Assembly: GCF_001636405.1 (NCBI RefSeq)
Contig: NZ_KV440950.1
Coordinates: 3,266,778 to 3,330,777, forward strand
Direction: 5' to 3'
DNA: 64,000 nt
DNA from: Peribacillus frigoritolerans
Lineage (GTDB): Bacteria > Bacillota > Bacilli > Bacillales > DSM-1321
Under the pieces are notes generated by a model that worked only from the letters and a program-made list of their open reading frames with translations, did no database searches and was not told the origin of the DNA. The number at the start of each line of letters is the position of its first letter. Position 1 is the first letter of the stretch. Below, piece after piece: positions 14,479 to 32,493 of the stretch. A program made the translations under genes and the position numbers.

Positions 14479-15108
14479 TCATTTGGATTCAATGTTTTGC
14501 ATTGAATCCAAATGAAGTTTCACTTTATGGATGTCTTCAGGCGTATCAATGTCAAACCCCCACATTGAATTGTCAAAAGAAACGGTCTTAGTAACCGCAT
14601 CATATTTTTTAATGATGCTTTTACCCCCTTGATCACCTTTTATTGAATGAAATTCATTGAGTATCGAGGCATCCACTAATATCGGATGTCCTACCCTTCC
14701 TTTATATTTTGGTCGGACGATTCGTACTCCTTCCTCTTTACACTCTAAATATTTTTCTATTAAAGCTCGTATGACCTCAAGGGAAGTAAGGGGCTGATCC
14801 GCAAGGAAGATCATGACTGCATCCACATGTTCTTTTATGGATTGAACTCCAAGTTTTAGAGAGGTGGACATTCCATCTATATAATTCGGATTATGAATAA
14901 TCTTCAATTCTGGATAATCTTCACTTTGTTGCCGGATTTCTTCTATATATTCACCGGCAACCAAATGGATGGGCTGCATGGAACTGCCAAGGATAGAATC
15001 AATGACATGCAGAAATAGAGGTTTGCCCGCCAAAGGAAGTAACAGTTTAGGTTCTCCCATTCGAATCGACATGCCTGCCGCAAGTATGATCACGCCTATT
15101 TTAGGCAT
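14479..15108 (-). CDS. mocA: MocA/PucB-type molybdenum cofactor nucleotidyltransferase
   Basis: 209 residues of the MobA/MocA nucleotidyltransferase family. The NTP-binding signature is at the N-terminus (ILAAGMSIRMGEPKLLLPL, about 8-26), with the catalytic aspartate motif FLADQPLT near residue 103 and GHPILVD near 155. MocA makes the cytosine dinucleotide form of the molybdenum cofactor used by xanthine-dehydrogenase-family enzymes. The gene overlaps xdhC by 8 bp and lies downstream of the Mo-hydroxylase genes, consistent with maturation of that enzyme. It is the last gene of the minus-strand island. Confidence 0.88.
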   Translation of the reverse strand: MPKIGVIILAAGMSIRMGEPKLLLPLAGKPLFLHVIDSILGSSMQPIHLVAGEYIEEIRQQSEDYPELKIIHNPNYIDGMSTSLKLGVQSIKEHVDAVMIFLADQPLTSLEVIRALIEKYLECKEEGVRIVRPKYKGRVGHPILVDASILNEFHSIKGDQGGKSIIKKYDAVTKTVSFDNSMWGFDIDTPEDIHKVKLHLDSMQNIESK

Positions 15109-16150
15109 GAATTTTCACTTTTCCATGCAAGGGTGCAGGAATCCTTCCATTTCTAACCGACATCAATTCCGACACAATACTTAGTGCAACTTCTTCCATC
15201 GTTTCAGCACCGATATCCAAACCAATTGGTGAGTGGATCGGACCGCTGTTGAAGTCTTCTCCGATTGTATCAAGCATTTCCGTTGTACGGGAGATTGGGC
15301 CAAGCACCCCAATATATCTTGGGTCACTTTTCAAAGCCACTTGTAAGGTCTTCTCATCCAAGGACTGGATATGATTCATGACTACCCACCATGATCCAGT
15401 ATATTCAGAAGGGTCAATTTCTTCTGGGTATTTTTGTAAATTATGAACTGAAGGGAACAAACAATCATTATTGAAATCCTTACGTGAATCCAATACCGTC
15501 ACGGAAAACCCAGCTTTGGCTGCCAATTCGGCAACTGGAACAGCATCCCTTCCAGCTCCGGCAATAATCAAGTGCTCGCTTGGTTTTATAGCATCAATTA
15601 GATATCGTTTTCCCTCCAGGTTCATCAATTCCGCTCGAGTTTGTGTATCTATTACCATCCTTGCTTTTTCAACGACTTCAGATGGCACACTTCCATGATT
15701 TCCAATGAGGTTACCATGTTTATCCACGATTAGACCTTTACCGGAGGATACATCCAATATCATGGTGAATTTCTGACCTTTCTGGATAATTTGATTTGTC
15801 ATCATCCAGAATTCGTCATCTGGCTCAATAGGTAGGATAGATATATCCAATTTACCTTTGCATCCTATTCCCAACCCCCAAATTTCATTCTCGCTCAAGT
15901 CATATTGGTGTGTAACGCAAGTGTTAGTCTCCATAGCCTTTTCCGCCCAGCCATATAAATCACTTTCCAAACATCCGCCACTTATCGTACCAAACATATG
16001 ACCGTCCGTTGCCATCATCATTTTTGCACCTGGAAGTCTGTATGCTGAACCCTTTACACCTATCTGCATGACCATGGCTGCTTTTTCGTGCCGCTCCCAT
16101 GCGGATCTTATATTTTCCAACACGTCTTTTAATTCTTGTAACCTTGACAC
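15101..16150 (-). CDS. xdhC: XdhC/CoxI-family Mo-enzyme maturation factor
   Basis: 349 residues. An N-terminal XdhC_CoxI domain (about 15-90; GVKGSAYRLPGAKMMM and SGGCLESDL with its conserved cysteine) is followed by a C-terminal Rossmann domain (about 188-330; LIIAGAGRDAVPVAELAA). XdhC proteins bind the molybdenum cofactor, aid its sulfuration and insert it into xanthine-dehydrogenase-type enzymes. GTG start with GAAGGGGG upstream. Separated from the MFS gene by a terminator, so it may have its own promoter or rely on readthrough. Confidence 0.9.
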   Translation of the reverse strand: MSRLQELKDVLENIRSAWERHEKAAMVMQIGVKGSAYRLPGAKMMMATDGHMFGTISGGCLESDLYGWAEKAMETNTCVTHQYDLSENEIWGLGIGCKGKLDISILPIEPDDEFWMMTNQIIQKGQKFTMILDVSSGKGLIVDKHGNLIGNHGSVPSEVVEKARMVIDTQTRAELMNLEGKRYLIDAIKPSEHLIIAGAGRDAVPVAELAAKAGFSVTVLDSRKDFNNDCLFPSVHNLQKYPEEIDPSEYTGSWWVVMNHIQSLDEKTLQVALKSDPRYIGVLGPISRTTEMLDTIGEDFNSGPIHSPIGLDIGAETMEEVALSIVSELMSVRNGRIPAPLHGKVKIHA

Positions 16151-16189
16151 TCCTTAACCCCCTTCTGGTATTCACATATGTGGAAGAAG

Positions 16190-16232
16190 AAAAAGGGAGA
16201 CAAATAGAAAATGCCCTATTTGTCTCTCCCCC
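16190..16232 (-). terminator. Rho-independent terminator after the MFS carrier gene
   Basis: On the minus strand the arm CTATTTGTCTCCC pairs with GGGAGACAAATAG (a 2-nt bulge on one side) and then runs into CCCTTTTTTC. It marks the end of a coxG-to-MFS transcript. Confidence 0.8.
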
Positions 16233-16264
16233 ATCATTCATTTTCAACGATTTAAATCAGAACA

Positions 16265-17560
16265 CTAATATCCTTTTCTGACTAAGAAAACACTTAAGAA
16301 AAGGGAGAGGGCAACAAAACATAAAAGGGCAATGAACCCGCCATTATATGAACCGCTCATTTGACTGAATAAACCGACAACCATGGGCCCAAGAGCTGCA
16401 ATTAAATACGATACACAGCCGAAAACCCCACTGATGCTCCCCATAACCTCAGGTGAAGCGACACGGTGAAGCATGGTCATGGTCAGGGCAGCTGGCATGA
16501 ACAAAAGACCTATCAATAAAATGCTCAAGACGGCCGCAACTGTGCTGTTAGTAGTGAAGAGTGAGAAGAGCATGAAAACGATGATAAGCCCGCATGCACC
16601 GCCTACAAAGATCGCCCTCTTCATGAATCGATCGGAGAGAAACCCAGCCACCATTTGTACAACAATGGCTAATGCGAATCCACCGGCATTTATAACAGCG
16701 GAATTTACAAAAGCTATCCCTTTTTCTTCAGTCAAATAACTTGGTAAAAATGTGGAAATCCCATAATAGGCAATGGAAATGCAAGAATATACAATCGTTA
16801 AAGTCCAGAACATCGGACTCGCAAGAACCGCTTTTACATTGCCTTTACTTGCGGTTGTGGTTTTCCCCGCTTTTTTATTACTTTGAATATAATTCAATTC
16901 CATTGAATTAACCGCGTAATGCTTCGCCGGATTATCCCTTGTCATGATTACAAATAAAATCAAACATACGACAGATAATGCCGCAAGAATAAAGTAGCTT
17001 TCCCTCCAGCCATAAGCGGAGGCTATTATCGCTATTAACGGAAGCCCCAGAACTGGTCCTATCGCATTTCCGTTATACCAAGTTGTCTGTGCCTTTGCTT
17101 GTTCATTCTGCGGGAACCAGCTTGAAGTTAATTTCAATGCCATTGGATACAGAACTCCTTCACCGATTCCCAATATCGCCCTGGACCATAAAATCCCTCC
17201 GATGGAATCGGCCATTCCACCTAAAACCATCGCAAAAGCCCACAAAGCAATCCCGATGAAACCGCTGCGCAGTGCACCTATCTTATCGATGATGAAGCCC
17301 CAAGCCAATTGACCAAAAGCATAAGTCACTAAAAATATGCTGCTGAGTGTTCCTTTCACTAAGTTACCATCAATGCCCAAGTCAGTCAGAAAAGGCTTGT
17401 TGGCTAGCAAAATATTAATGTTTGCCTTATCCATCATGGAAACAGTGAAAAGAACAAGCAAAGGAAAAGCCGTGAAGAGCCAACGGGCATTCGTCATTTT
17501 GCCTGATGAATCATGTAGTTGTGGATTTAAATTATTCAAAATATCAGCCCCTATTATCAT
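16265..17560 (-). CDS. MFS transporter, anion:cation symporter type
   Basis: 431 residues with about 12 membrane helices. The MFS motif between helices 2 and 3 (WGFIIDKIGALRSGF) and the following GGMADSIGGILWSRAILGIG fit the ACS family, which imports organic anions such as aromatic acids. The start is uncertain: AGGGG at about 17547 favours TTG 17539, and an ATG at 17497 (MTNARWLFTAF) is also possible. It lies directly behind the Mo-hydroxylase genes and before the terminator, so it probably imports that pathway's substrate or exports a product. Confidence 0.85.
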   Translation of the reverse strand: MIIGADILNNLNPQLHDSSGKMTNARWLFTAFPLLVLFTVSMMDKANINILLANKPFLTDLGIDGNLVKGTLSSIFLVTYAFGQLAWGFIIDKIGALRSGFIGIALWAFAMVLGGMADSIGGILWSRAILGIGEGVLYPMALKLTSSWFPQNEQAKAQTTWYNGNAIGPVLGLPLIAIIASAYGWRESYFILAALSVVCLILFVIMTRDNPAKHYAVNSMELNYIQSNKKAGKTTTASKGNVKAVLASPMFWTLTIVYSCISIAYYGISTFLPSYLTEEKGIAFVNSAVINAGGFALAIVVQMVAGFLSDRFMKRAIFVGGACGLIIVFMLFSLFTTNSTVAAVLSILLIGLLFMPAALTMTMLHRVASPEVMGSISGVFGCVSYLIAALGPMVVGLFSQMSGSYNGGFIALLCFVALSLFLSVFLVRKGY

Positions 17561-17680
17561 GAAATGTCCAAATCAGTGTAATCCCCTATTTACACTTCCA
17601 TTTTCATGCTCGTCTGTTCTTCTGTCATGGCATAGGGCATTATCCATCAACAATGAATTCTAAACCGCTAAATGAACTTT

Positions 17681-20058
17681 TTAACTTATTTCGATTTTGT
17701 GCTTTTTCGTTTCCGCTTCCTTAATCCAATTTCTGAGTTTACTTGGGCTAATGGGCAATTGATTGATCGTGATATCTAATGGTGCGAGAGCATCGACGAC
17801 AGCATTCGCAATGGCTGCTGGCGGGGAAATGGCTCCGCCTTCACCCACCCCCTTGATACCAAGTGGATTTCTGGTAGAGAGGAATTCCTGGTGGGACTTT
17901 TCAACAGTCGGAATCTCCATGGCAGTAGGCAATAAATAATCCATATAAGAGCCGGTCAAAAGTTGGCCTTTCTCATCGTAAACGACTTCTTCATATAGAG
18001 CTGCACCAATCCCCTGGGCTATGCCACCTTGCACTTGACCATCAACTATCATTGGATTGATGACCTTTCCTGCGTCATGAACCACACTATAACCCTTCAA
18101 CTCGGCAAAACCCGTCACCTTATCCACTTCCACGATGGCAATGTGGACGGACGATGAAAAAGTAACAGTGGGCGGAACGAAGTAATGTGTGACTTGCAGG
18201 CCTGGTTCCATTCCAACAGGCATCTTGCATCTGTTTCCTGGACGTGCCGCTCCAGCAATTTCCTTATAGGTCATACATTTTTCAGGTTCGGTCCTAACAA
18301 AGACTTTACCATTTTCCATTTGTAAGTCAGCGGCTTCAACTTCAAGCATGGTAGCTGCGACCGCCAATATTTTTCCCCTTAATTTCGCTGAAGCTATTTG
18401 AATGGCGGATCCAGCATTTACTGCACTCCGGCTTGCGTACGTTCCGGCACCAAAGGCCAAGTTCGCTGTATCCCCTACCCTTATGGTAATCTCATCTGGG
18501 CAAAGCATTAATTCATCCGCACAGATTTGGGAAAATACCGTTTCGTGACCCTGCCCCTGCGGGGATGCTCCAAGGTATGCCACAACTTGACCGGAACCAT
18601 CAACTGAGACATAGGCACTTTCGAACGGACCTGCACCGGTGCCTTCTACATAAGTGGAAATGCCGATACCAACTAGCTTCCTTGCTTCTTCAACTCATTT
18701 TGCCGCTCTCTAAATCCTTCGTAATCGACCATTTTCAAACCTTGTTCCAGTGCAGCGGGATAGTCCCCGCTATCATATATCAGTTTTGCTCCATCCTTAA
18801 CCAAAATCCCTTGATCATAGGGCATATCCTCCGCTTGAATCATGTTCTTTCGCATTACGTCCACTGGATCTTTTTTCAACTTTCTAGCGATCATATCGAT
18901 TATTCGATCCATTACGAAAACGACCTCTGGTCTCCCTGCTCCCCGAAATGGAACATTCGGTGTTTTATTCGTTAACACAATCTGGCAAGTAACATCATAG
19001 TTTGGAATCTTATATGCTCCCCTTAGATGGTAGGCACTATTGTAGGCACAGGTTAATCCGAAATAATTGACAGCGCCGCTATCTATGATGAAATGATCTT
19101 TTATTCCCAAAATAGTTCCATCCAGATTATAAGCAACCTCAACATCATGGATTTGATCTCGTGAATGGCGGGCACTTGTCAAATGTTCCAGGCGGTCTTC
19201 AATCCACTTGACAGGTCTTTTCAATAGCTTGGATAGATATGGGACCAAGATTTCTTCAGGGTGAACCCCGCCTTTTGGTCCGAAACCACCACCTACGTCA
19301 GGTGCAGTCACCCTGATTTGCTGTTCAGCCAAATCCAATGATCTTGCAATATAAGTTCTAATTTCAAAAGGAAGTTGAGTGGAAGAATAAACATGCAATT
19401 GATCTGTACGGTTTTCATGGATGGAAACGACTCCCCTCGTTTCGAGCGGGTTGGAAGAAACTCTAGGCGTTTGGATTCTTGCTTTCAGAATATGATCTGC
19501 ATCTTTAAGCGCCTGTCCAGCATTTCCAGTCGTGACATGAAAATCTGCCTGGACGTTATTCTGTAAATGCTCTTGAATCAATGGGGCACCTTTTTCCATT
19601 GACTTGAATGGGTCGACAACCACTGGAAACGTCATATATTCCACTTTTATCAAATCGGCTGCATCTTCAGCCACATACCTGTTTTCTGCAACGACGACGG
19701 CAATGGGCTGCCCGACATACATCACCTTATTCTTGGCCAGGACATCTTCATAACAATAATGGATAGTGGGATTGATCGCTTCCTCCAGATTGGCAGGCAA
19801 AGCACAATGTGATTCAAATTGGACAAGAGGCTTTATTATCCCATCTATATCCATTCCGGTGAGAATGGCATGCACCCCTTCCAATGCCTGAGCTTCGGAG
19901 ATATCGATCCCCTTGATTGCAGCATGTGCATGTGTGCTGCGGACAAAGACTGCTTCAACCATATTTGCCGCTCGGATATCTCCCACGAATTGCCCTGTAC
20001 CTGTAACCAAACGATAATCTTCCTTCCGCTTAACACTTTGACCAACGTATTTTGTCAT
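17681..20058 (-). pseudogene. Mo-hydroxylase molybdopterin subunit (CoxL/XdhA-like), frameshifted
   Basis: Large catalytic subunit of a xanthine-dehydrogenase-family hydroxylase, split into two frames. 18673-20058 (461 aa) holds the N-terminal domain (DYRLVTGTGQFVGDI) and the Mo-cofactor motifs VGGGFGPKGGVHPE and VPFRGAGRPEVV. 17681 to about 18680 continues with LVGIGISTYVEGTGAGPFES, GASPQGQGHET and the active-site loop GVGEGGAISPP. The first frame stops at KKQGS; one extra base there would restore GRLVGIGIS and a protein of about 790 residues, normal for the family. VPFRGAGRPE in place of the CODH VAYRCSFR loop argues against CO dehydrogenase and for an aromatic/heterocycle hydroxylase. Either a true pseudogene or a sequencing error. 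Confidence 0.85.
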
Positions 20059-20071
20059 GCCTGTTCCCCCC

Positions 20072-20551
20072 TTAATTGGACACAGTTTGGGCAGCCTGCT
20101 TCACAGCTTTAATAATATTGGAGTAACCGGTGCATCGACATAAATTTCCTGAAATGCATTTTCTTATTTCTGCTTCACAAGGGTTTGAATTTTCTTCCAG
20201 AAAACTTGAAACCGTCATTAAAAATCCTGGTGTACAAAATCCGCATTGCAAGGCATGATTATCCGAAAATGCTTGCTGTAGGTGATTAAGGTCCCCATTC
20301 TCCTGGATAAGTGACTCAACAGTCTTGACTTCACATCCATCCGCTTGAACTGCAAGCATTAAACATGAGCGGACCGGATCACCGTTAACATGGATTGTAC
20401 AAGCTCCGCAAACACCATGTTCACATCCAATATGCGTTCCAGTTAGTAACAGGTTCTCCCTGATGAAATCCGATAATAGCAATCTAGCGTCTACTTCCCT
20501 GGATATATCTTGTCCGTTTACTTTTAGATTTATCTTAACTCCATCCATCAC
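20072..20551 (-). CDS. Mo-hydroxylase [2Fe-2S] subunit (CoxS-like)
   Basis: 159 residues, typical for the small iron-sulfur subunit. Ferredoxin-type cysteines are C43, C48, C51 and C63 (GCEHGVCGACTIHVNG...C). The second helical-domain cluster is C103, C106, C138 and C140 (CGFCTPGF and CRCTGY). All eight ligands are present. It passes electrons from the Mo centre to FAD. The start overlaps the end of the FAD subunit by 4 bp and the CoxL gene follows 13 bp later, so the three subunits are cotranscribed in order M-S-L. Confidence 0.95.
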   Translation of the reverse strand: MMDGVKINLKVNGQDISREVDARLLLSDFIRENLLLTGTHIGCEHGVCGACTIHVNGDPVRSCLMLAVQADGCEVKTVESLIQENGDLNHLQQAFSDNHALQCGFCTPGFLMTVSSFLEENSNPCEAEIRKCISGNLCRCTGYSNIIKAVKQAAQTVSN

Positions 20552-21429
20552 ATCACCCTGCCCCCTTGTGCACGAATGGTCGCTTTCTTCAAAGCCCGGA
20601 TGACCATCGTTCCAGATAGTTCCCTTCTATATTCAGCTGTACCATGGAGATCTGATTCAGGTTCTACCAGCTCCATTGTTAAATCGCTCGCCTTCTTAAA
20701 AAGTTCTTCATTCGGTTCCTTTCCAAATAAAAGTCTCTCCACATCCTCTAAAGCTGTAGGAATGGAATTAACGCCGCCAATGGCTAATTTAACCTCAGAA
20801 AAACTTCCTTCTTCACTTAAATCCACTACTGCCGCCACCTCAACCAGTCCAAAATCCCCATGCCTTCTAGCCACTTCAACAAATGCCGATCCACTAGCCG
20901 GCTTTATTATCGGGAACCGAATTTCTTTAACCAATTGATCCGGCTGTAAGGATGTTAGCATATAGGTTAGGAAGAACTCTTCAGGGCTTACTATTTCTTC
21001 GCCATTTTCATCGGCAAGAACTATTTCTCCTCTTAAAGCAGTTAGCACACATGGCAGCTCCGCAGATGGATCACCATGGGCGATGCTGCCGCCAACAGTT
21101 CCACGATTTCGAATTTGTTCATGGCCTACCCAACGGATCGCTTCTGAAAGCAATGGACACTTTTCCTTAACCAACTTGGATTTTTCTATGTCCCTGTGTT
21201 TCGTCAAAGCACCGATGACCAGTGATTCACCATCTGCATGTATATAACTCAACCCTCCAACCCTCCCTATATCAATAATGTATTTTGGCGTTGAAAGCCT
21301 CATATTCAATAATGGGATCAAACTTTGTCCTCCGGATAATACTTTCGCATCATCACCGTATTCTGATAAATAGTGGACCGCTTCTTCCAAGCTCGAAGGC
21401 CGAAGGTAATTAAACTTAGCTGGTTTGAT
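20548..21429 (-). CDS. Mo-hydroxylase FAD subunit (CoxM-like), apparent ATC start
   Basis: FAD-binding subunit. VLSGGQSLIPLLNMRL and NRGTVGGSIAHGDPSAELP are the two flavin-binding motifs, followed by the CO-dehydrogenase flavoprotein C-terminal domain. The only ordinary start in this frame is TTG 21390, which has no ribosome site and cuts off the usual N-terminus. Reading upstream gives IKPAKFNYLRPSSLEEAVHY, where homologues have M-K-P. The first codon is ATC (21429-21427), 5 nt after GGAGGGG. So the start codon appears to be ATC, a mutated ATG, or a base error. About 293 residues from there. Confidence 0.88.
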   Translation of the reverse strand: MKPAKFNYLRPSSLEEAVHYLSEYGDDAKVLSGGQSLIPLLNMRLSTPKYIIDIGRVGGLSYIHADGESLVIGALTKHRDIEKSKLVKEKCPLLSEAIRWVGHEQIRNRGTVGGSIAHGDPSAELPCVLTALRGEIVLADENGEEIVSPEEFFLTYMLTSLQPDQLVKEIRFPIIKPASGSAFVEVARRHGDFGLVEVAAVVDLSEEGSFSEVKLAIGGVNSIPTALEDVERLLFGKEPNEELFKKASDLTMELVEPESDLHGTAEYRRELSGTMVIRALKKATIRAQGGRVM

Positions 21430-21481: not shown

Positions 21482-22006
21482 TTAAATTCTTTGGTGAGTT
21501 TTCAACTGTTTCTCCATATCTTTAAAGAATTTACCTGCCATGAATTTTGCAATGCCACCAATGACCCTGCTTCCTACACCAGCAATCATTCCACCTATAT
21601 CTGCGTTGCATTCCCAAATCAATTGACAACCATTACCAACAGGTATGATTCTACAGTCCATTTCAGCAGAAACAAAACCTGGTTTCCCGCTGCCTTCAGC
21701 ATTTAAAATATACCGATGGGGCACTTCCAAATCCTTCAATTTCACCTTTCCCGTGTAGTCACCTTTTACAGCTGCAACACCAAGTTTAAGTTCAACGTCA
21801 TACTCGCCAGCAGCAACTAATGAAAGGTTTTGACATCCTGGAATGGCATTCTTGAGTAATTCAGGATTATGCATGGCTTCCCAAATCACTTCTGCACTAT
21901 AATCAAAGTTAATCTTTCCTGATATCTCCAATTCCCCTCGCCCCCGATTATACAAATTTTTTATACCCTTTTGCTCCTTTGGAAAAAAGGCATCACCTGC
22001 ATACAT
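21482..22006 (-). CDS. CoxG-like SRPBCC protein of the Mo-hydroxylase cluster
   Basis: An SRPBCC-fold (START-like) protein of the carbon monoxide dehydrogenase subunit G family. Homologues begin near LEISGKINFDYSAEVIWEAM, which is residue 26 here, so the real start may be TTG 21931 (after GAGGGG). The frame is open from ATG 22006. AIPGCQNLSL and the C-terminal IGGIAKFMAGKFFKDMEKQL amphipathic helix match CoxG, thought to recruit the enzyme to the membrane. First gene of the CoxG-M-S-L-MFS transcript. Confidence 0.85.
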   Translation of the reverse strand: MYAGDAFFPKEQKGIKNLYNRGRGELEISGKINFDYSAEVIWEAMHNPELLKNAIPGCQNLSLVAAGEYDVELKLGVAAVKGDYTGKVKLKDLEVPHRYILNAEGSGKPGFVSAEMDCRIIPVGNGCQLIWECNADIGGMIAGVGSRVIGGIAKFMAGKFFKDMEKQLKTHQRI

Positions 22007-23294: not shown

Positions 23295-23334
23295 ACTAAT
23301 AAACCTACTTCCCATAGTTTATTTTATTATGAAC

Positions 23335-24123: not shown

Positions 24124-24157
24124 TGTAACCAGCCTCCTCTTTTTAACCAAGTCAATA

Positions 24158-24667
24158 TTATACGAAGATAGCAAGATTTCTGGTATTTATCGTTGATTGA
24201 TCAACAATGAATATTCGTTTGGAAAGTTTCCATTTACCTTCTTCGAAAATGAATTCATCATTTCGTTCCCCCGAAATCAGATCATGCTGAATATCCGTGC
24301 TGCGGCTGCGATAGATGAGCAGGTAGCTCTTGACGACTGCCTTTTCACCTTCAACATAGTCTTTAACGCGTACATTTGAGACAAAACGCCGTGTTCTTGA
24401 TGGCGGTATTTCCGCCCATGCATAATCCGTTTTCAAACGATCCACTCGCAGTTTCAGCAACTCAATATCATCATTAAATGTAAACATTTCCGTTGAATAA
24501 TCCGGGCGTTCCACCCCTTCTTTATTAACACGTACAGGCATTTGATAGTGTAAACTCGAGTGCATTAAATCGAACCAATCATCAAATTCAATATCATCCA
24601 GTAATTGAGCTTCATCATACAGCCATTGTTCAAATTGACATTTGAGCAACATTTTCTCCACATTCAT
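24158..24667 (-). CDS. Aromatic-ring-hydroxylating dioxygenase beta subunit
   Basis: 169 residues, the normal length for the small structural subunit (SnoaL/NTF2-like fold). Landmarks are WLYDEAQLLDDIEFDDWFDL near the N-terminus, MPVRVNKEGVERPD, and the C-terminal SKRIFIVDQSTINTRNLAIF. Beta subunits pair with the Rieske alpha subunit in an alpha3beta3 hexamer and carry no catalytic metal. It lies 21 bp behind the alpha gene. No ferredoxin or ferredoxin reductase gene is present in the island, so electrons must come from elsewhere. Confidence 0.9.
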   Translation of the reverse strand: MNVEKMLLKCQFEQWLYDEAQLLDDIEFDDWFDLMHSSLHYQMPVRVNKEGVERPDYSTEMFTFNDDIELLKLRVDRLKTDYAWAEIPPSRTRRFVSNVRVKDYVEGEKAVVKSYLLIYRSRSTDIQHDLISGERNDEFIFEEGKWKLSKRIFIVDQSTINTRNLAIFV

Positions 24668-24688: not shown

Positions 24689-25990
24689 TCATTTCGTCAT
24701 CAATTCAAGCCAGTACTTGTAAAAATTCCTTTGGCTCGCTTCAGTGAATTTATCATCGTAAGCAACACCAGGACCTATAAAATCAACTGGTTCACGATGA
24801 AGACCCATTGTATAATTGTAGGTTAGATTCTTTAGGAAAGGCATTGGTCCTTGGGCTGCTTCAGTGATATCAGTAAAAACTTCCGTATCATCCTGTTCGA
24901 AAATACCGGATGGGCTAAAGGTCAAGATAAATGAATCTCTTGATCTATCTTTCCAATCTTGGGAGGCGTTCTTTTCCACGAGCATCCAAGCAATCACTTC
25001 CATTTTATTGTGACCGATTGGCCGCCACATCCTTATTGAAGTGTTGGAGATGAATTGGTCTTTGATTTTTGTATGGGATATTAAAAATGATAGGTTAGGG
25101 AAGACATTCCCAATCATATTCTTTAAGTTTGATAACACTCCATATTGTTCTTCAGACAAATTAGTTTTAAATTCATCTTTCAATTCTTCCGGGAAAGCGA
25201 AGTCAGGATTAGGAGTCCCTAAGTTTAGTCCATGCCCGTTATCCGTATGGATTTGAAAACCGCGCTTTGAATAGGTAGCATTGGGCACCATGCCCAGTTT
25301 GGCAATGGATCCGTGTGTGACCATCGTGTGATAGGAATCACCAACAAAGTTATCGGAACCAACTTTCCAGTTTGAATTAACAACGAATCTTTGCGGAACT
25401 CCGATTACTTCCATTTCTGCTCGTCCTACAAGGATATCCAAATACCATTTAATGTCTCCAAGAAACTCTTCAAGCGGCTCTGCATTTTCATTCCAAGTTC
25501 CAAATAAAAGACCTTTATAGGATTCAAGCTTTACTTTGTGAAGGCCCATTTCCGAGCGGTCAAGGTTACCCCCATATATATCCTTTTGTAATGGCACTCC
25601 TACGAGTTCACCAGTGTTTTTAAAATTAAACCCATGGTAGGGGCAAGTAAATAATGACTTGTTCCCTTTATCTGCACGGCATAATTTCATTCCGCGATGG
25701 GTGCACATATTATAAAACGCCCTGATTTCCCCTTCAGCATCACGAGTAATGATGAGAGAGTAGCCAGCAAGTTCACGGGTCATGAAGTCTCCTTTGTTCG
25801 GTACTTCAGAATCATGGCCGATAAAAACCCATGTTTTCAAAAACACTTTTTCATGTTCTATATCATAAACCTTTGGGTCTCCAAGGAGGTATGCAGGTAT
25901 AACGCCTTCCTCTGGTTTAACCGTTTCGTTCAAATAGTCAACAACTTGCTGTTTCGACATTTCTTCTAAGGATTTTTCAGTTTTAAGCAT
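24689..25990 (-). CDS. Aromatic-ring-hydroxylating dioxygenase alpha subunit (Rieske)
   Basis: About 433 residues from ATG 25990 (GGGAGAG upstream; the frame is open to 26029). The Rieske [2Fe-2S] ligands are C96 and H98 (CTHRGMKLC) and C116 and H119 (CPYHGFNF). The catalytic iron site is DNFVGDSYHTMVTH with H221 and H226, and the bridging aspartate D218. The enzyme adds O2 to an aromatic ring to give a cis-dihydrodiol. Substrate range cannot be judged by eye; relatives act on benzoate-, phenylpropionate- and biphenyl-type compounds. Both metal sites are intact. Confidence 0.93.
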   Translation of the reverse strand: MLKTEKSLEEMSKQQVVDYLNETVKPEEGVIPAYLLGDPKVYDIEHEKVFLKTWVFIGHDSEVPNKGDFMTRELAGYSLIITRDAEGEIRAFYNMCTHRGMKLCRADKGNKSLFTCPYHGFNFKNTGELVGVPLQKDIYGGNLDRSEMGLHKVKLESYKGLLFGTWNENAEPLEEFLGDIKWYLDILVGRAEMEVIGVPQRFVVNSNWKVGSDNFVGDSYHTMVTHGSIAKLGMVPNATYSKRGFQIHTDNGHGLNLGTPNPDFAFPEELKDEFKTNLSEEQYGVLSNLKNMIGNVFPNLSFLISHTKIKDQFISNTSIRMWRPIGHNKMEVIAWMLVEKNASQDWKDRSRDSFILTFSPSGIFEQDDTEVFTDITEAAQGPMPFLKNLTYNYTMGLHREPVDFIGPGVAYDDKFTEASQRNFYKYWLELMTK

Positions 25991-26028
25991 ACTTTTTCTC
26001 TCCCTTCCAAGCTTTACATCATTATGCA

Positions 26029-26814
26029 TTACCCGATCTGAACGCTTTTTTCCTTGTTTTGCAGAGTCGCCAAAACGCTTAATGCCGCTAGATAACTCGT
26101 TTTCGGATTATTTGGCATCGGATCATTTTCCACTTCCAGTTTCAGTTTCCCGAACGAACCTGACGCTTCTATCAGGTGATTGTTTTTTAACACATTTGGA
26201 TCGGCAATGATTTTCACTTTCGTCTTTTCTGATCCAAGACCAGCCATAGACAGCACAATCGCAACATTGATGTTTCTCGGAAACTGCTTGATCGCTTCTG
26301 CAGCAGTTCCTTCAAATAATACCGTTTCTTCTGTCACTGAAGACCCTTCCGGCAATGCGTTTGGCGGTTTTCTTGTGGTAATGCAAACAGATTCAAGGCC
26401 ATTCACCGCTTTTGCCGATTTAAGTACATCTAGACCTCCAATCGCACCAGACGGAAGGAGAATATTCACGTTATTCAATTTACAAATCTGGTTTGATTGT
26501 TCTTCAAAGGCGGAATTCGCCATAACGCCAATGCTGCTTAGCAAGAGATCCTTCCCGCTTTTAAGCACTTTCAATGCATACTCTTCAGCTGCTTCTATCG
26601 TTGCAGCCTCTATGACTAAATCAACATCGGATTTAAGAAGTTCGTCGACATCACGATATGGCTGTGTCCTGAATTCTTCAGCTAATTGTGCCGAAACTTC
26701 TTCACGGCGGGCATAAATCGCAACGATTCTTCCACCTGGAAGAAGCCCGTCGTTATTAATGGCCTGAAGCAGAAATTTTCCGATATTACCGCACCCGATT
26801 AAACCTAACTTCAT
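26029..26814 (-). CDS. Aspartate dehydrogenase-like NAD(P)-dependent enzyme
   Basis: 261 residues of the NadX/aspartate dehydrogenase family. The Rossmann motif GLIGCGNIGKFL is at about 4-15, PSGAIGGLDVLKSA at about 121-134, NINVAIVLSMAGLG at about 181-194, and the conserved active-site histidine H213 in NNHLIEASGSFG. Family members oxidise L-aspartate to iminoaspartate/oxaloacetate, or run in reverse. NAD biosynthesis genes are absent here; the neighbours are aromatic-catabolic. The enzyme may instead handle an amino- or imino-acid intermediate. The stop codon overlaps the long form of the dioxygenase alpha gene. Confidence 0.85.
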   Translation of the reverse strand: MKLGLIGCGNIGKFLLQAINNDGLLPGGRIVAIYARREEVSAQLAEEFRTQPYRDVDELLKSDVDLVIEAATIEAAEEYALKVLKSGKDLLLSSIGVMANSAFEEQSNQICKLNNVNILLPSGAIGGLDVLKSAKAVNGLESVCITTRKPPNALPEGSSVTEETVLFEGTAAEAIKQFPRNINVAIVLSMAGLGSEKTKVKIIADPNVLKNNHLIEASGSFGKLKLEVENDPMPNNPKTSYLAALSVLATLQNKEKSVQIG

Positions 26815-26830: not shown

Positions 26831-28282
26831 TCAATCAGCAAACCCGTATGAGTCCGCAAAGAATTCCAACCCGCAATGTCTTGTTTCCCGCGAAACACCG
26901 CTTTCTTTTAAGCCAGGGAAGTCCAGGGCCAAGTCACTGAAAACGGTATGATTATTATGGAATACCGCACCAGCTTCAAGGCGATCTGCCATTTCGACAG
27001 CGATATCTTCATTCTCGGTCCAAACAGATGCACGCAGCGCAAACTCACTATCATTCGCTAATTTTACAGCTTCATCGATATCATTGAAAGGTAAAATTGG
27101 AATGATCGGTCCGAATTGTTCCACTCGAACCAATTCGCTCTGCTGATCGACGCCAGTAATAATGGAAGGAAGCATATAATAACCTTTATCCCAAGTTTCC
27201 GGATTCAGCTGGATGCCGGTTGTGATTATATTTCCCCCTGACTTAGCGGTGCGTTCGATCAAGCCATTCACAAAGTCATATTGTGCTTTATTATTCAATG
27301 GACCCATGGTTACATCAGGCTGAATTCCATCACCGATCACCATCCGGCTGAACTCTTTGGTCAGCTTCTCCACAACTTCATCATATCGTGATTCTTGGAC
27401 GTACACTCTTTTTACAGCAGAACAAACCTGACCCGCCGCTCGTAAAATCCCCATCCTCAAACGTTTGATAGCCGCTTCATCCATATTGGCATCTTCCAAA
27501 ATGATGGCAGGATCATTGCCGCCAAGTTCCATATATACTTTTTGCAGATTTCCAGCTGATTTCTGCATGATATCTTTCCCGGTTTCCGTACTTCCGACAA
27601 AAGCCAATGTCCTTACGCGTGAATCGGAACATAATGTGTCGCCGATTGCTTTTCCTGATCCTGAGACTATATTGATGACTCCTGGAGGAAAATGTTCAGC
27701 AACTACTTTTAAACAGGTCATGATCGTTAAAGGACAATTCGTTGCAGGTTTTACGACAACGGCATTGCCTGCCAAAACAGCAGGTATGACCCTTTTAAAT
27801 GTTAATATCATCGGAGAATTCCACGGTGTGATTATTGCCGTGACACCTCTTGCCCTTCTTCGGATTTGGACTTTTTGTTTTCCTGGAAGCACTTCAGGCT
27901 TCCACCAATCAAGTAACTCCGCTGCACAGCCCTTCATTACTTCAACACAGCGCAGTAAATCCTTTTTAGCTTCAACAAGTGTTTTGCCATTCTCACGTAC
28001 AAACACGGTAACATTTTCCTCGATAACTTTTGATAGTTCTTCTGCCGCAGTGTTCATCCTGTTTGCCCGTTCCCCGATATCAGAGCGAGACCACGTTTCA
28101 AAAGCATTTTCTGCCGCTTCAATAGCACCATTCACGATTTCTTCAGAGCATTTTGCCACCTGGCCAACTACTTCCGATGTATTTGCCGGATTTACAACAT
28201 CGACTTTTTCCGGTAATTCTATCCATTCTCCATTAACTAGATATTTTCCTGAAACAAATGGGTATGTCGAAATCATTCTCAA
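26831..28282 (-). CDS. Aldehyde dehydrogenase family protein
   Basis: 483 residues, the usual ALDH length. NAD-binding segment TPWNSPMILTFKRVIPA near 150, FVGSTETGKDI near 228, the general-base glutamate in MELGGNDPAI near 251, and the nucleophilic cysteine in AAGQVCSAVKRV near 286. All catalytic residues are present. It oxidises an aldehyde to an acid with NAD(P). It stands between a ThDP-dependent enzyme and the aspartate-dehydrogenase-like gene with short gaps. A decarboxylase-then-ALDH step, 2-oxo acid to aldehyde to acid, is a reasonable guess. Confidence 0.92.
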   Translation of the reverse strand: MRMISTYPFVSGKYLVNGEWIELPEKVDVVNPANTSEVVGQVAKCSEEIVNGAIEAAENAFETWSRSDIGERANRMNTAAEELSKVIEENVTVFVRENGKTLVEAKKDLLRCVEVMKGCAAELLDWWKPEVLPGKQKVQIRRRARGVTAIITPWNSPMILTFKRVIPAVLAGNAVVVKPATNCPLTIMTCLKVVAEHFPPGVINIVSGSGKAIGDTLCSDSRVRTLAFVGSTETGKDIMQKSAGNLQKVYMELGGNDPAIILEDANMDEAAIKRLRMGILRAAGQVCSAVKRVYVQESRYDEVVEKLTKEFSRMVIGDGIQPDVTMGPLNNKAQYDFVNGLIERTAKSGGNIITTGIQLNPETWDKGYYMLPSIITGVDQQSELVRVEQFGPIIPILPFNDIDEAVKLANDSEFALRASVWTENEDIAVEMADRLEAGAVFHNNHTVFSDLALDFPGLKESGVSRETRHCGLEFFADSYGFAD

Positions 28283-28288
28283 TCCTCC

Positions 28289-29977
28289 TTATAGTTTTTT
28301 GGGCTTGAATGCTTCCGCAGCTCCCGGTGGTCCGCCAAATGGTTTGGCCATTGGCCCCACAGCTTCCATATCAACGACGATCATTGAAGGTTTACGTCTT
28401 TCCTTAGCCTTTTTCAGTTCGGATATGAACTCATCTCCAGAACCAATACGCACTGCATCAAAATGCATGGACTCAGCCAGTTTCACAAAATCAGGGCTCA
28501 ATAAGTCCACAGCTACCTGCCGACCATATGCCGCTGTTTGGATATTGCGAAGAACTCCATAGCCTGAGTCATCGAACAATACGATGATAACTGGTAAGTT
28601 TTCTTCGGCTGCCGTAACCATTTCCCCGACGTTCACCATAAACCCACCATCTCCAGCCATAAGAACGACGGTTTTATCTTGACATCCCATTTGGGCACCG
28701 ATTGCTGTTGGAAGACCTTGACCGATTCCGCCGCCTGATGCATGAATCGATGTTCTCGGTTCATAGATTTCAAATAAACGGCTGCCCCAAACATTTGCCT
28801 GTACGGTCACATCACGAACTAGAATGGTATCCTCTGGTAATATCTCCCTCATGCCATCTACAAATTGCTCATACGGTCCAAGCGTTTCCCTGAGTTGAGC
28901 GCGCACTTCATTTCTAAGTGAAAGAACTTCTTGTAAATAAGATGGCTCTGCATGAACTGAATGTTCTTCAAGCTTTTGAATGATGGCGGCAAGCATATCT
29001 TTTGCATCGCCAACCAAACCTAACGTGGCTTTATAGTTCCGGTTAATGGCCTGCCAATCCGCATCGATCGCTATATGTTCTTGTGGCACCGGCACTTTCC
29101 AGTTGGACGTTTCATTCCCCCTAAACCTTACACCTACGCTGATCAATAAATCTGCATTTCTTAAAAACTCTTTTGTAGTTTCATATGCCGCAAAATGTCC
29201 GATGCATTGTTCATGGTTTTCTGGAATCGATCCTTTTCCTGACTGACTGGTTATAACCGCTGCACCAAGGATTTCCGCCAATTTTTGCAGCTCTTGCGAA
29301 GCATTGGCACTGATTACCCCACCACCGGCCCATATGACAGGACGGCTTGCGCTTACCATTTTTTGAACGGCTAGTTCAGGAATAATTGGCATTGAATTTG
29401 TTTCTGAGGGCGAAGTTCGTAGCCCTTCGAGTGAAAGATCTTCTATGATCACCGATTGATAGTCAATTGGAATTTCCAATGTAACCGGACCCGTTGGTGC
29501 AGTTAAAGCTTCTTGGATTGCCTTCCTTACTACTGCTGCGGTTTGGTCAGGGTTTCTAAGCCTCACTGCATTTTTACATGCTCCGCTCATCATTGAAAGC
29601 TGGTCTTTACACTCATGTATGTATCCTTTGCCTGTACCAAGATAAGAAGAAGCCACCTCACCTGTTAGATGAAGAAGGGGGACACCAGCTGCCCAAGCTT
29701 CCACTAGAGAACCAGCTGCATTTCCTGCCCCTGTTCCAGTACTGGTAATCACTACACCCAATTTCCCGGTTGCGCGTGCATATCCATCAGCCATATTTAC
29801 AGCACCGCTCTCACCGCGTGAACAAATGAGTTTGATGCTCCCTTCCCTAAGAATTGCATCATAGATGGGCATATTGTGAATGCTGACAATCCCGAAAGCA
29901 GCTTCCACACCTGCTTGAACAAGCTCCTTTACGATGGAATCGGCGGTCGTAAACTCTATTTCTTCTTGTATTTTCAT
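28289..29977 (-). CDS. Thiamine diphosphate-dependent enzyme (AHAS/benzoylformate decarboxylase type)
   Basis: 562 residues with the three-domain ThDP layout. The N-terminal Pyr domain has the activating glutamate (CSRGESGAVNMADGYAR, about 52-68). A central domain follows (about 195-330). The C-terminal PP domain has the metal/ThDP motif MAGDGGFMVNVGE (about 439-451) and FDDSGYG. It is related to acetolactate synthase large subunits and benzoylformate/oxalyl-CoA-type decarboxylases. No regulatory small subunit or branched-chain genes are nearby, so a decarboxylase or carboligase acting in the catabolic route is likelier. Substrate unknown. Confidence 0.88.
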   Translation of the reverse strand: MKIQEEIEFTTADSIVKELVQAGVEAAFGIVSIHNMPIYDAILREGSIKLICSRGESGAVNMADGYARATGKLGVVITSTGTGAGNAAGSLVEAWAAGVPLLHLTGEVASSYLGTGKGYIHECKDQLSMMSGACKNAVRLRNPDQTAAVVRKAIQEALTAPTGPVTLEIPIDYQSVIIEDLSLEGLRTSPSETNSMPIIPELAVQKMVSASRPVIWAGGGVISANASQELQKLAEILGAAVITSQSGKGSIPENHEQCIGHFAAYETTKEFLRNADLLISVGVRFRGNETSNWKVPVPQEHIAIDADWQAINRNYKATLGLVGDAKDMLAAIIQKLEEHSVHAEPSYLQEVLSLRNEVRAQLRETLGPYEQFVDGMREILPEDTILVRDVTVQANVWGSRLFEIYEPRTSIHASGGGIGQGLPTAIGAQMGCQDKTVVLMAGDGGFMVNVGEMVTAAEENLPVIIVLFDDSGYGVLRNIQTAAYGRQVAVDLLSPDFVKLAESMHFDAVRIGSGDEFISELKKAKERRKPSMIVVDMEAVGPMAKPFGGPPGAAEAFKPKKL

Positions 29978-30007
29978 CGCATTATCCTACCTTTTTCAGT
30001 AATATAT

Positions 30008-30808
30008 TTATAGTGCCTTTCCGATCGCTCCTGCCGTCTCAATCGTCGAACCCGCTACATAACTTGCTTTGTCTGAAGCAAGGAAAACAATGACACTGGC
30101 CACTTCTTCCGCTTCCCCTACGCGGCCGAGAGGGATATTCCGTTTTTTCGCTAGGTCCCCGTAATACTCTTCAGGGTCCATATCAGGCGCATTTTTCAAC
30201 CTTCTTCGCTCCCATTGATCGGTCCGGATCAATCCAAGACTCACTGAATTCACCAATATATTGTCAAAGGCCAATTCCTGGGACAAGGTTTTGCTTAAAT
30301 TAAGGAGGCCAGCCCTTGCTGCTGCAGTCGCTACCATATGACGTTCAGGTTCTTTGGCAAGCGTTGCATTAATATTAATGATCCGTCCTCCTCCCCTTTT
30401 CACTAAATGAGGATGCGAAGCACGAACGGCATATATGATGGCAAAGAACTTTAACTGAATCTGTTCTTCCCACTGCTCATCCGTTATGTCAAAAAAGTGA
30501 CCCATCACGCTTTGACCGGCTGCATTCACCAAAATATCGATTCCGCCAAACCTCTCAGCGGTACCATTAATGAAAGAATCCACATCCGATTTTGAGGTGA
30601 CATCACACGTTGATGCAAAAATATCTTCCTTTTCACCAAATGAGAGCAATTGACTTTGTGCACTTTCCATACGCTCAGCACTTCTGCCGCAAATAGCCAC
30701 TTTCGCTCCTTCAGCTAAAAACATTTCTGCTGTTTTTAATCCCACGCCCGACGTGCCGCCCATAATGACAGCCACTTTTCCTTGCAATCCTAAATCCACT
30801 CTCTTCAC
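30008..30808 (-). CDS. SDR-family oxidoreductase
   Basis: 266 residues. Dinucleotide motif GGTSGVGLKTAEMF near 17-30, and NAAGQSVMG near 95. The segment where YxxxK is expected reads HMVATAAARAGLLNLSKTLS, so the usual catalytic tyrosine is replaced while the following helix and substrate region are kept. The Y/K dyad is therefore degenerate: either the reaction differs from ordinary SDR dehydrogenation or activity is lost. It is not the closest relative of the other SDR in this cluster. It lies between the extradiol gene and the ThDP gene. Confidence 0.85.
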   Translation of the reverse strand: MKRVDLGLQGKVAVIMGGTSGVGLKTAEMFLAEGAKVAICGRSAERMESAQSQLLSFGEKEDIFASTCDVTSKSDVDSFINGTAERFGGIDILVNAAGQSVMGHFFDITDEQWEEQIQLKFFAIIYAVRASHPHLVKRGGGRIININATLAKEPERHMVATAAARAGLLNLSKTLSQELAFDNILVNSVSLGLIRTDQWERRRLKNAPDMDPEEYYGDLAKKRNIPLGRVGEAEEVASVIVFLASDKASYVAGSTIETAGAIGKAL

Positions 30809-30899
30809 TCCTTTTCAAAGCCATTTTCCTCAAATGCTGTCCTTTAATCAACAAGATCCTAACTAGCGCAAGAATCATGGGAGGAAATCAAACTCCTCC

Positions 30900-31838
30900 T
30901 CATTTTTTCGCCATGAATGAACCACCTATATGAGAATCAACCCAGCCTGGATCGGGATCTCCTCCCATTGCTTTGCGCGCTTCAGGTTTCGGCGGCCCTG
31001 CAATCCCCCACTGATCCATTAAATGCGGAACCCGTTTCCATACACGTGCTCTCCACTCAGATTCATCTTCGATCGTTTCCAGATAACATGTATACTCCAT
31101 TACAAAACCGCCTGGGTCTTGAAAATAACAGAAAATATTGTCCCCCGGCCCATGACGTCCAGGTCCCCAAAGTTCTGACAAGCCCGCTTTTCGGACATTG
31201 CTTATTCCTCGCATCAATTCATCCACGGAATCGACTTCGTATGCGATATGATTGACTGACGCATGCTCATCTTGATTGAAGGCGATGGAGTGATGCTTTC
31301 TGTTGCACCGGAGGAATGACATTTGATGCTCACTCCAATCAGTGACTTTAAAACCAAGTACATCCGTATAAAACTCAACGATCATATCTAAGTTCTTCGT
31401 GTTCATTACAACATGATTCAATTTCACTGGATCAACATTTTTCTTGCTCCAAATAGACGTTTGCACTTCCACCCAAGCCGAAAGCTCGATCACGCGGTTT
31501 TCTGGATCAATAAACCGCAGGCCATAACCGGCACCTGCTTCATCCAAATATCCAGGCGGTTCAATAATTCGAACGCCCTTCGATTGTAATATCCCTGCTG
31601 CACGGTCCACCGCATTTTTATCGACCATGCCAAAAGCTATATGGTGCAATCCTCGTTTTTCTCCCTTGTGAAGGCTAAGAATATGATGTTCCGGTCCAGC
31701 CCCCCGGAAATAAACCGTATTCCCCTCTTCCGGAACATCCACCCTATCCAGACCCCAAACCTTTTCATAAAACTCTGCTTGATCGTCGAAATTCGGAGTA
31801 ATCATGCTTATATGTCGTAAATGAGTAATCCCAAGCAT
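30900..31838 (-). CDS. Extradiol ring-cleavage dioxygenase (VOC, type I, two-domain)
   Basis: 312 residues with two VOC domains (about 1-125 and 140-265), as in catechol-2,3-dioxygenase-type enzymes. In the C-terminal catalytic domain the Fe(II) ligand candidates are the histidine of VKLNHVVMNT (about 142), the histidine of SVNHIAYEVD (about 198) and the glutamate of PGGFVMEYTC (about 251). These enzymes open catechol-type rings next to the hydroxyls. Position in the island fits a cleavage step after dihydroxylation. No typical meta-cleavage hydrolase follows it. Confidence 0.85.
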   Translation of the reverse strand: MLGITHLRHISMITPNFDDQAEFYEKVWGLDRVDVPEEGNTVYFRGAGPEHHILSLHKGEKRGLHHIAFGMVDKNAVDRAAGILQSKGVRIIEPPGYLDEAGAGYGLRFIDPENRVIELSAWVEVQTSIWSKKNVDPVKLNHVVMNTKNLDMIVEFYTDVLGFKVTDWSEHQMSFLRCNRKHHSIAFNQDEHASVNHIAYEVDSVDELMRGISNVRKAGLSELWGPGRHGPGDNIFCYFQDPGGFVMEYTCYLETIEDESEWRARVWKRVPHLMDQWGIAGPPKPEARKAMGGDPDPGWVDSHIGGSFMAKK

Positions 31839-31960
31839 TTTTTATACCTCCCATAATTTAGATTGCCCTTTAGATCATTCGCATTGGCCATATTTAACAA
31901 TCTAATCGAAAAGGGCGCCTCATTAATTTTCATAATGCAGGTGCCCTTTCGGCTAAATGA

Positions 31961-32493
31961 TCAATCTTTAATGATGGCTTCTCTTTCTTTAGAGCGTTGT
32001 TTACGCAGTTCTTCCAGTTCACTGCCTTCAGGGTATGTCGGTAAGTTAGGCTTCACTGCCCCAAGCATCACTAGCATGCGCGCCTCTACATCCCCGTCAT
32101 TCCTAATTCCCCGATAAACCCCCGGCGGGCTGCTTATGCAGTCTCTCGCACTTAATTTAATTTCATGCACTTCACTGTAGCTGTCCTCTTGAATTAATGC
32201 CGTGACTTCACCCTCAAGAATGAAAAACACTTCTTCAACATCGTCATGAAGATGCAAAGGACCGATACATCCCGGAGGGAGCACCATCGTACTTAAAGTG
32301 AAATGTTCACCTGCAATTACATTCGTATCGTTATTGGCAGTGGCACCACGTCCGATATATCTCATCTGTGCGCGTCTATAAGCGGGATCAATTTCTTCTT
32401 GGAACTTCAAGACATTCCAATCAAGAGTACGGTCTTTCAATCGGGCAACATATTTTTTTCAAAATCCTTCACTGAGAAAGTTTCTTTTGTCAT
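31961..32493 (-). pseudogene. Cupin-domain protein with an N-terminal frameshift
   Basis: The readable frame (31961-32440, 159 aa) carries a cupin barrel with metal histidines in GPLHLHDDVEEVFFILEGE and later PPGVYRGIRNDGD. A good start, GGGAGG then ATG at 32493, opens a frame MTKETFSVKDFEKN that stops after 18 codons. One additional A in the seven-A run (T-run 32453-32459) would join it as DFEKKYVARLKDRTLDWNVL. So the gene probably spans 31961-32493 (about 177 aa) and is either truly frameshifted or misread in a homopolymer. It is the first gene of the island. Cupins of this type can be ring-cleaving or isomerising enzymes. Confidence 0.75.

Follow-up and report, generated by a model that had tools for sequence, protein, structure and literature searches.

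We describe here a ten-gene core cluster in a 64,000-nucleotide stretch of Peribacillus frigoritolerans DNA (the window, part of a 5.46 Mb Peribacillus genome in two contigs) and tentatively read it, at rather less than even confidence, as an operon for breaking down kynurenate (4-hydroxyquinoline-2-carboxylate), or a very closely related quinoline-2-carboxylate, by the 'quinoline' pathway, with an adjoining molybdenum (Mo) hydroxylase module as an optional feeder. The gene content, which combines a Rieske oxygenase and an extradiol dioxygenase with two short-chain dehydrogenase/reductases (SDR1 and SDR2), a thiamine diphosphate (ThDP) enzyme, an aldehyde dehydrogenase (ALDH), and an aspartate-dehydrogenase-like protein (NadX), supports an aromatic, probably N-heteroaromatic, catabolic role. 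The system resembles an ordinary catabolic island encoding a widespread pathway for which we found no description, and kynurenate is the best single guess at its substrate.

The minus strand of the window holds 18 genes as 19 open reading frames (ORFs), given below in transcription order from the IclR regulator to MocA, followed by two neighboring features. We define the core as the ten genes from IclR to SDR1, the VOC gene as a variable member, and the Mo block as the genes from CoxG-like to MocA.

32767..33582, minus strand: IclR-family regulator (PcaR/PcaU/PobR-like), first core gene; TIGR02431 at 235.6 bits, below the cut-off of 284.75.
31961..32440, minus strand: cupin protein, 5′ end broken here; PF07883.
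30900..31838, minus strand: type I extradiol ring-cleavage dioxygenase; TIGR03211, TIGR02295 and TIGR03213, all below cut-off.
30008..30808, minus strand: SDR2, atypical SDR and candidate ene-reductase; NF005468 at 303 bits, above the cut-off of 266.
28289..29977, minus strand: ThDP enzyme of 562 aa, candidate 2-oxo-acid decarboxylase; NF005470 at 643.8 bits, above the cut-off of 495, with a GDG cofactor motif.
26831..28282, minus strand: ALDH; PF00171 at 452 bits, with GQVC and ELGG motifs.
26029..26814, minus strand: NadX, aspartate-dehydrogenase-like imine/amino-acid enzyme; TIGR03855 at 234.2 bits, above the cut-off of 206.55.
24689..26029, minus strand: Rieske oxygenase alpha subunit; PF00355, PF00848 and motifs.
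24158..24667, minus strand: Rieske oxygenase beta subunit; NF007479 at 155 bits, above the cut-off of 145.
23335..24174, minus strand: SDR1, dihydrodiol-dehydrogenase-type SDR; NF004849 at 318 bits, just under the cut-off of 330, with YTASK at 174.
22335..23315, minus strand: two-domain VOC (glyoxalase-fold) protein; PF13669 twice.
21482..22006, minus strand: CoxG-like protein, first of the Mo module; PF06240.
20548..21390, minus strand: Mo hydroxylase FAD subunit; PF00941, PF03450.
20072..20551, minus strand: Mo hydroxylase 2Fe-2S subunit; PF01799, PF00111.
18673..20058, minus strand: Mo hydroxylase large subunit, N-terminal part (broken gene); PF02738, PF01315.
17681..18583, minus strand: Mo hydroxylase large subunit, C-terminal part in another frame (broken gene); PF20256.
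16265..17560, minus strand: major facilitator superfamily (MFS) carrier of the Mo module; PF07690.
15101..16150, minus strand: XdhC/CoxI-type maturation factor; PF13478, PF02625.
14479..15108, minus strand: MocA-type molybdenum cofactor cytidylyltransferase; TIGR03310 at 166 bits, below the cut-off of 186.45, and PF12804.
33832..33954, minus strand: alpha/beta hydrolase remnant on the IclR side; 66% identity over 41 aa to the Peribacillus sp. Bi96 gene.
34728..36020, plus strand: divergent putative MFS gene adjoining the core; a 430-aa ORF with no NCBIfam match at 1e-50, its identity taken from relatives only, in which an MFS gene occupies the same divergent site (e.g., L068-L077).

The ORF list and family matches confirm all genes named by the initial annotation and place them on the minus strand, from 14479 to 32440. 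Its gene list overlooked the CoxG-like protein, the two-domain VOC protein, and the second SDR; its boundaries left the IclR gene (32767-33582) outside and passed over the divergent MFS-like gene and the hydrolase remnant.

Comparison of the window locus with 18 further Peribacillus loci (19 in total) resolves these genes into two modules. The ten core genes stand together in 18 of the 18 other loci, a grouping that exceeds chance; at a single locus (G007), both the ThDP gene and the SDR2 gene are split in two. Of 36 genomes examined in the genus, an identical set of 19 carries the ThDP gene and the extradiol gene. The VOC protein is more variable, with 47% identity in two of the 18 loci and no counterpart found in one. 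The Mo block from CoxG to MocA occurs in the window and six of the 18 relatives, or seven of 19 loci, its MFS carrier being present in all six. The core stands without the Mo block at the other 12 loci, two of which retain a CoxG remnant, suggesting the loss of a block. In comparisons with seven relatives, the ten core genes have ratios of nonsynonymous to synonymous substitution rates (dN/dS) of 0.004-0.149, and the VOC protein has ratios of 0.146-0.283. Four of these comparisons include the Mo block, whose genes range over 0.061-0.466. The Mo block is accessory, and the 18 kb initially treated as one island form two modules.

Homologous cores extend to the Bacillota, Pseudomonadota, and Actinomycetota, among them many bacteria of soil or associated with hosts. 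A scan of named genomes with the ThDP alignment gave 564 confirmed relatives, of which the best 80 were kept and joined by four annotated plasmid-collection records and five more; 108 loci were scored, 104 of them distinct. The cupin, extradiol enzyme, SDR2, ThDP enzyme, ALDH, and NadX occur together with a Rieske oxygenase at 76 of the 104 distinct loci, 39 with an alpha/beta Rieske enzyme and 37 with an alpha-only type. The remaining 28 lack one or more parts, represent different ThDP clusters (the second locus of the Peribacillus genome described here is one), or are cut by contig ends. Of 397 genomes sampled across the order, 26 show a ThDP match at an E value of 1e-120 or better. Homologous clusters occur in Klebsiella, Acinetobacter, Pseudomonas, Providencia, Caballeronia, Novosphingobium, and Aeromicrobium, and differ from the Peribacillus core in having an alpha-only Rieske enzyme, usually a ferredoxin and/or reductase, an alpha/beta hydrolase, and in some cases RidA. 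Identities to the Caballeronia sp. SBC2 proteins are 51% for the cupin, 44% for SDR2, 43% for the ThDP enzyme, 33% for NadX, 31% for ALDH, and 29% for the extradiol enzyme. The cluster sits between speB and tkt in the Klebsiella pneumoniae and K. aerogenes records. At 17 of the 104 distinct loci, all alpha-only and found in Pseudomonas, Pigmentiphaga, Alcaligenaceae, Variovorax, Caballeronia, and Aeromicrobium, a RidA-family imine deaminase gene lies just 3′ of the Rieske alpha gene (e.g., L155:6309-6725). Pseudomonas aeruginosa PA3504-PA3508 may be a further relative. A mucin study (PMC5757984) tabulates values of 2.18 to 2.44 for Acinetobacter baumannii A1S_0956-0958, whose annotations read aspartate dehydrogenase, betaine-aldehyde dehydrogenase, and acetolactate synthase; from their names and order we take them to be the same genes. 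The initial annotation had raised the possibility of homologous clusters with a known substrate; homologs are indeed widespread, and we found no described substrate for any of them among the open PMC papers listed.

The Peribacillus genome also carries a second ThDP locus (G000:C1:3780646-3783752, in L036), at which a ThDP paralog of 57% identity is accompanied by a GbcA-like Rieske alpha protein, an ALDH, an M20 amidohydrolase, and a thioredoxin-reductase-like protein. A sigma-54 regulator and an amino-acid permease belong to the same cluster, genes for an IS6 transposase and GlaH (glutarate dioxygenase) lie nearby, and no extradiol enzyme was found there. Rieske, ThDP, and ALDH genes are also adjacent at three Neobacillus loci (L094, L097, and L099).

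The Rieske alpha subunit, a 446-aa ORF, contains C109/H111...C129/H132, D231..H234....H239, and EQDD at 378; the Rieske motif reported earlier as C96/H98/C116/H119 is intact, that numbering matching a start 13 residues later. Its closest solved structures by sequence are 2b1x, a Rhodococcus-type naphthalene dioxygenase, and 9jp5, a phthalate 3,4-dioxygenase, a likeness from which substrate specificity is not inferable. A reading of the Rieske pocket from alignments was too uncertain and was not used. The Rieske beta subunit and SDR1 are closest to 3-phenylpropionate-pathway models, and both a ring-dihydroxylating oxygenase and a dihydrodiol dehydrogenase are present by family and motif. In the extradiol dioxygenase, H142, H197, and E248 are invariant among 22 sequences from the Bacillota, Pseudomonadota, and Actinomycetota, as are H63, H65, E69, and E70 of the cupin among 21 sequences. 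SDR2 carries T161-x3-R165 at the usual Y-x3-K site, with threonine in 72 and arginine in 73 of 73 aligned sequences, and SDR1 retains the canonical Y-x3-K; this pairing would fit SDR2 as a C=C reductase. NadX passes the L-aspartate dehydrogenase model TIGR03855, which predicts its activity. A separate NadB is encoded elsewhere in the genome, making a role for NadX in NAD synthesis unlikely.

These families can be arranged into a putative route from kynurenate. The Rieske alpha/beta enzyme would add O2 at C7-C8, and SDR1 would oxidize the resulting dihydrodiol to 7,8-dihydroxykynurenate, whose benzene ring the extradiol enzyme would open to give 5-(3-carboxy-3-oxopropenyl)-4,6-dihydroxypicolinate. 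SDR2 may then reduce the side-chain double bond, the ThDP enzyme may decarboxylate the 2-oxo-acid side chain to a formylethyl compound, and ALDH may convert the latter to 5-(2-carboxyethyl)-4,6-dihydroxypicolinate. In a putative seventh step the pyridine ring would be opened, and the resulting 2-imino or enamino acid would pass to NadX (RidA in other lineages), the cupin, and an alpha/beta hydrolase. The Mo module, broken in this sequence, could optionally feed the route by converting quinaldate to kynurenate.

Several features of the core recommend this arrangement. The families assigned to the first six steps are present and co-conserved, both among the Peribacillus loci and at 76 of the 104 distinct loci, and the chemistry of kynurenate breakdown, as given in KEGG and the literature of the 1960s, follows the same sequence of reaction types. 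This pathway of Pseudomonas runs through dihydroxylation, dihydrodiol oxidation, extradiol cleavage, side-chain reduction, decarboxylation, and aldehyde oxidation, with amino acids among its products; we know of no genes for its enzymes. Only a hydrolase remnant represents the canonical meta-cleavage set of hydrolase, hydratase, and aldolase: neither a meta-pathway aldolase nor an mhp-type hydratase is among the family matches listed for the 19 ORFs. The ThDP and ALDH families, whose predicted roles supply a 2-oxo-acid decarboxylase and an aldehyde dehydrogenase, are constant members, and together with the lack of a listed aldolase they suggest that a 2-oxo-acid side chain is processed through decarboxylation, which is also how the kynurenate route proceeds. 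The presence of NadX in the core, and that of RidA behind the Rieske gene at the 17 loci, point to imine or enamine intermediates and hence to nitrogen in the substrate; opening of the pyridine ring of kynurenate would yield a 2-imino acid resembling iminosuccinate. From the extradiol enzyme without an aldolase, the atypical SDR2, and NadX/RidA we infer a fused-ring, nitrogen-containing acid. Some pseudomonads convert kynurenate to glutamate, alanine, and organic acids, according to a review (PMC11354673). The oxopropyl, carboxyethyl, and 7,8-dihydroxy intermediates of this route are mentioned by name in PMC11364965 and PMC10543884.

A number of observations weigh against kynurenate. The substrate is inferred from gene content, and we found neither a direct link between the cluster and kynurenate in open PMC papers nor, among the matches listed from those papers (subscription papers and preprints lie outside this set), a described gene cluster for kynurenate degradation, the latter being a weak sign that none exists. 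No tryptophan 2,3-dioxygenase gene, and no physical link to one, was found at any of the 108 loci. Within the genus this gene is present in 19 of 19 cluster genomes and 6 of 17 others (p = 2e-5), a co-occurrence that can be explained by shared descent. For the order as a whole, 20 of 397 genomes have a ThDP match of at least 68% identity, which stood in for the cluster. Tryptophan 2,3-dioxygenase occurs in 13 of these 20 and in 173 of the remaining 377 (p = 0.11); for 4-hydroxyphenylpyruvate dioxygenase, used as a control, the numbers are 11 of 20 and 110 of 377 (p = 0.02). The control does at least equally well, so this co-occurrence lends kynurenate no support and was dropped as evidence. 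Among 15 genomes searched, tryptophan 2,3-dioxygenase was not found in six that bear the cluster (A. baylyi, A. guerrae, Providencia rettgeri, two Pseudomonas, and one Aeromicrobium). The Rieske enzyme differs between the Bacillota and the other phyla, so that the first substrate could differ as well, and the occurrence of the ThDP family at the second locus without an extradiol enzyme indicates that ThDP alone does not fix the chemistry. The cupin of a described pathway, LumY, is a hydratase, and the core cupin may be one too; this weakens the argument from a missing hydratase, and such an activity may alter the seventh step or the whole lower route. For the Mo large subunit, CO dehydrogenases score nearly equal to quinoline 2-oxidoreductase (1t3q). 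Finally, the hydrolase has decayed in the clade, and the cupin and Mo large-subunit genes are broken here.

LumY, a hydratase acting after ring cleavage, belongs to the lum cluster for lumichrome/riboflavin catabolism in Nocardioides simplex (PMC12746152). Besides this cupin, the cluster includes a Mo enzyme of xanthine-oxidase type, Rieske and extradiol dioxygenases, and a ThDP decarboxylase. Compared by gene description, it is the closest described N-heteroaromatic route combining Mo, Rieske, extradiol, ThDP, and cupin proteins that we found. Unlike the core, lum has a P450, pyrimidine-ring hydrolases, its own ferredoxin and reductase, and a retro-aldolase, and its ThDP enzyme consists of two small subunits rather than a single 562-aa protein; the terms 'aspartate' and 'aldehyde dehydrogenase' do not occur in the main text of that paper (PMC12746152). 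The 3-phenylpropionate (hca) and bph pathways resemble the core in the models matched by Rieske beta and SDR1 and in having an extradiol enzyme. The core differs from them in lacking its own ferredoxin and reductase, in having no mhp-type hydratase or aldolase among the listed matches, and in possessing ThDP, NadX, and the atypical SDR.

A serious contender, though one we would still place short of even, is that the core degrades another nitrogen-containing aromatic acid, and that its enzyme families act in a different order. Candidates include xanthurenate, other substituted quinoline or pyridine acids, and anthraniloyl or other aryl-amine compounds. RidA could then handle an imine made directly by the oxygenase, as its position just after the Rieske alpha gene at 17 loci would allow, and the cupin could be a hydratase, for which LumY is the precedent; the use of two Rieske types and the variation of the Mo block among lineages are also compatible with this explanation. 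No aldolase is among the family matches listed, however, and the combination of atypical SDR, ThDP enzyme, and ALDH appears best explained by a fused-ring substrate. Degradation of a hydrocarbon or xenobiotic, such as a polycyclic aromatic hydrocarbon or phthalate, is very unlikely: it would suit the closeness of Rieske alpha to 2b1x and 9jp5 among solved structures, but it leaves unexplained the nitrogen indicated by NadX and RidA, and genus-wide conservation under strong purifying selection would better suit a common natural compound.

The initial annotation had proposed a single route using both the Mo hydroxylase and the Rieske enzyme. Such an obligatory route, in which the Mo enzyme hydroxylates an N-heterocycle and the Rieske enzyme then acts on the product, as in the lumichrome/quinoxaline route of Nocardioides (PMC12746152), would account for the fact that, in the window and six relatives, the Mo and Rieske genes are neighbors on a single strand, and the lum pathway does have successive Mo hydroxylase, Rieske, and extradiol steps as well as a cupin. 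We consider it unlikely, given the 12 of 19 Peribacillus loci that carry the core without the Mo block, the weaker constraint on the Mo genes (dN/dS 0.061-0.466 versus 0.004-0.149), and the break in the Mo large subunit here; moreover, no P450 or pyrimidine-ring hydrolase is among the matches of the 19 ORFs, and the lum ThDP enzyme has two subunits. That the island is decaying and non-functional in this strain is suggested by the broken Mo large subunit, the broken 5′ end of the cupin gene, and the hydrolase remnant. This is quite unlikely as well: 16 of 18 genes show no frame break against the ORFs of relatives, core dN/dS is low, and the two breaks, one at a homopolymer, could be sequencing errors.

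We favor an optional feeding role for the Mo enzyme over an obligatory partnership with the core, and quinaldate 4-oxidoreductase yielding kynurenate would be the simplest fit to such an optional module. The N-terminal part of its large subunit finds its best solved-structure matches in 7dqx (6-hydroxypseudooxynicotine dehydrogenase), then 8uem (CoxL), and third 1t3q. Both 7dqx and 1t3q are N-heterocycle hydroxylases, which the module resembles as a Mo hydroxylase of three-subunit type and from which it differs in that the Peribacillus large subunit is broken here. Form I aerobic CO dehydrogenases have AYXCSFR as their active-site cysteine motif; such an enzyme was rejected on the strength of PFRGAGR at residue 370 of the N-terminal part. 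The 2Fe-2S subunit holds eleven cysteines, which accommodates the eight ligands ascribed to it earlier. Three Pseudomonadota loci (L065, L128, and L131) likewise have large subunits of Mo hydroxylases close to the ThDP gene or core; these are ~28-37% identical to the Peribacillus protein and were possibly recruited separately.

A three-subunit Mo hydroxylase was reported earlier, and three subunit genes are present; the enzyme is incomplete here, its large subunit being divided between two ORFs in different frames (18673-20058 and 17681-18583). The same subunit is uninterrupted, at 792 residues, in six of the six relatives carrying the gene. The cupin ORF encodes 159 aa, versus 177 aa in two relatives; its late start results from a change of frame where a run of A occurs close to the 5′ end. 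The other 16 of the 18 genes show no frame break in alignment to the ORFs of two relatives. The breaks, at 32441-32500 and ~18679, lie within 14 kb of one another, one of them at a homopolymer run, and close relatives are intact. They may be sequencing errors or real, recent decay.

Gaps in electron carriers and hydrolase were noted at the outset. Ferredoxin and reductase genes were found at none of the 39 full loci with an alpha/beta Rieske enzyme, marking the gap as a lineage trait, and at 36 of the 37 full loci with an alpha-only enzyme. The Bacillota Rieske enzyme probably borrows a housekeeping ferredoxin and reductase. No PF14759 reductase is encoded in the genome, which has seven Rieske proteins: three oxygenases and proteins of 105, 527, 183, and 173 aa. 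The 105-aa protein lies directly after an 804-aa NirB-like gene and is therefore probably NirD, and from their lengths we take the 183- and 173-aa proteins to be QcrA-like. As for the meta-cleavage hydrolase, the window has no full gene, as first stated, and yet retains 41 recognizable hydrolase codons at 33832-33954, beside the IclR gene, where many other Bacillota clusters have an alpha/beta hydrolase. In a rough survey of the 18 relatives, where some stretches end inside the gene, six match it at 78-100% identity over the available stretch (one of them, L035, is the genome that supplied the query), eleven give broken or short alignments, and one gives no match.

Elsewhere in the window, upstream of the cluster at 36670-42747, lies a D-glucosaminate-type operon (GntP transporter, DgaF aldolase, DgaE-type ammonia lyase, and amidohydrolase), a sugar-acid operon that we take to be unrelated. 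The region 5262-11504 holds a tandem duplication in which two permease-like genes of 447 aa each alternate with an amidohydrolase-like pair of 541 and 543 aa, near-alike as read from their translations.

Kynurenate is a neuroactive and immune-active tryptophan metabolite whose bacterial breakdown has been known chemically since the 1960s and to which, to our knowledge, no genes have been assigned. A little more tentatively than the substrate itself, we suggest that the cluster is the first gene set for a complete kynurenate pathway, with a core shared by the Bacillota, Actinomycetota, and Pseudomonadota, a swapped Rieske enzyme, and an optional Mo quinaldate module. If so, an SDR with threonine and arginine replacing tyrosine and lysine would be an ene-reductase, the ThDP enzyme would be a decarboxylase for an aryl 2-oxo acid, NadX would reduce a ring-derived imine, and several orphan enzyme activities would become testable genes. 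A core common to three phyla, of which we found no description in open papers, merits assay even under another substrate. Were the kynurenate assignment correct, kynurenate-degrading capacity would become readable from the genomes and microbiomes of soil, plant, and host-associated bacteria.

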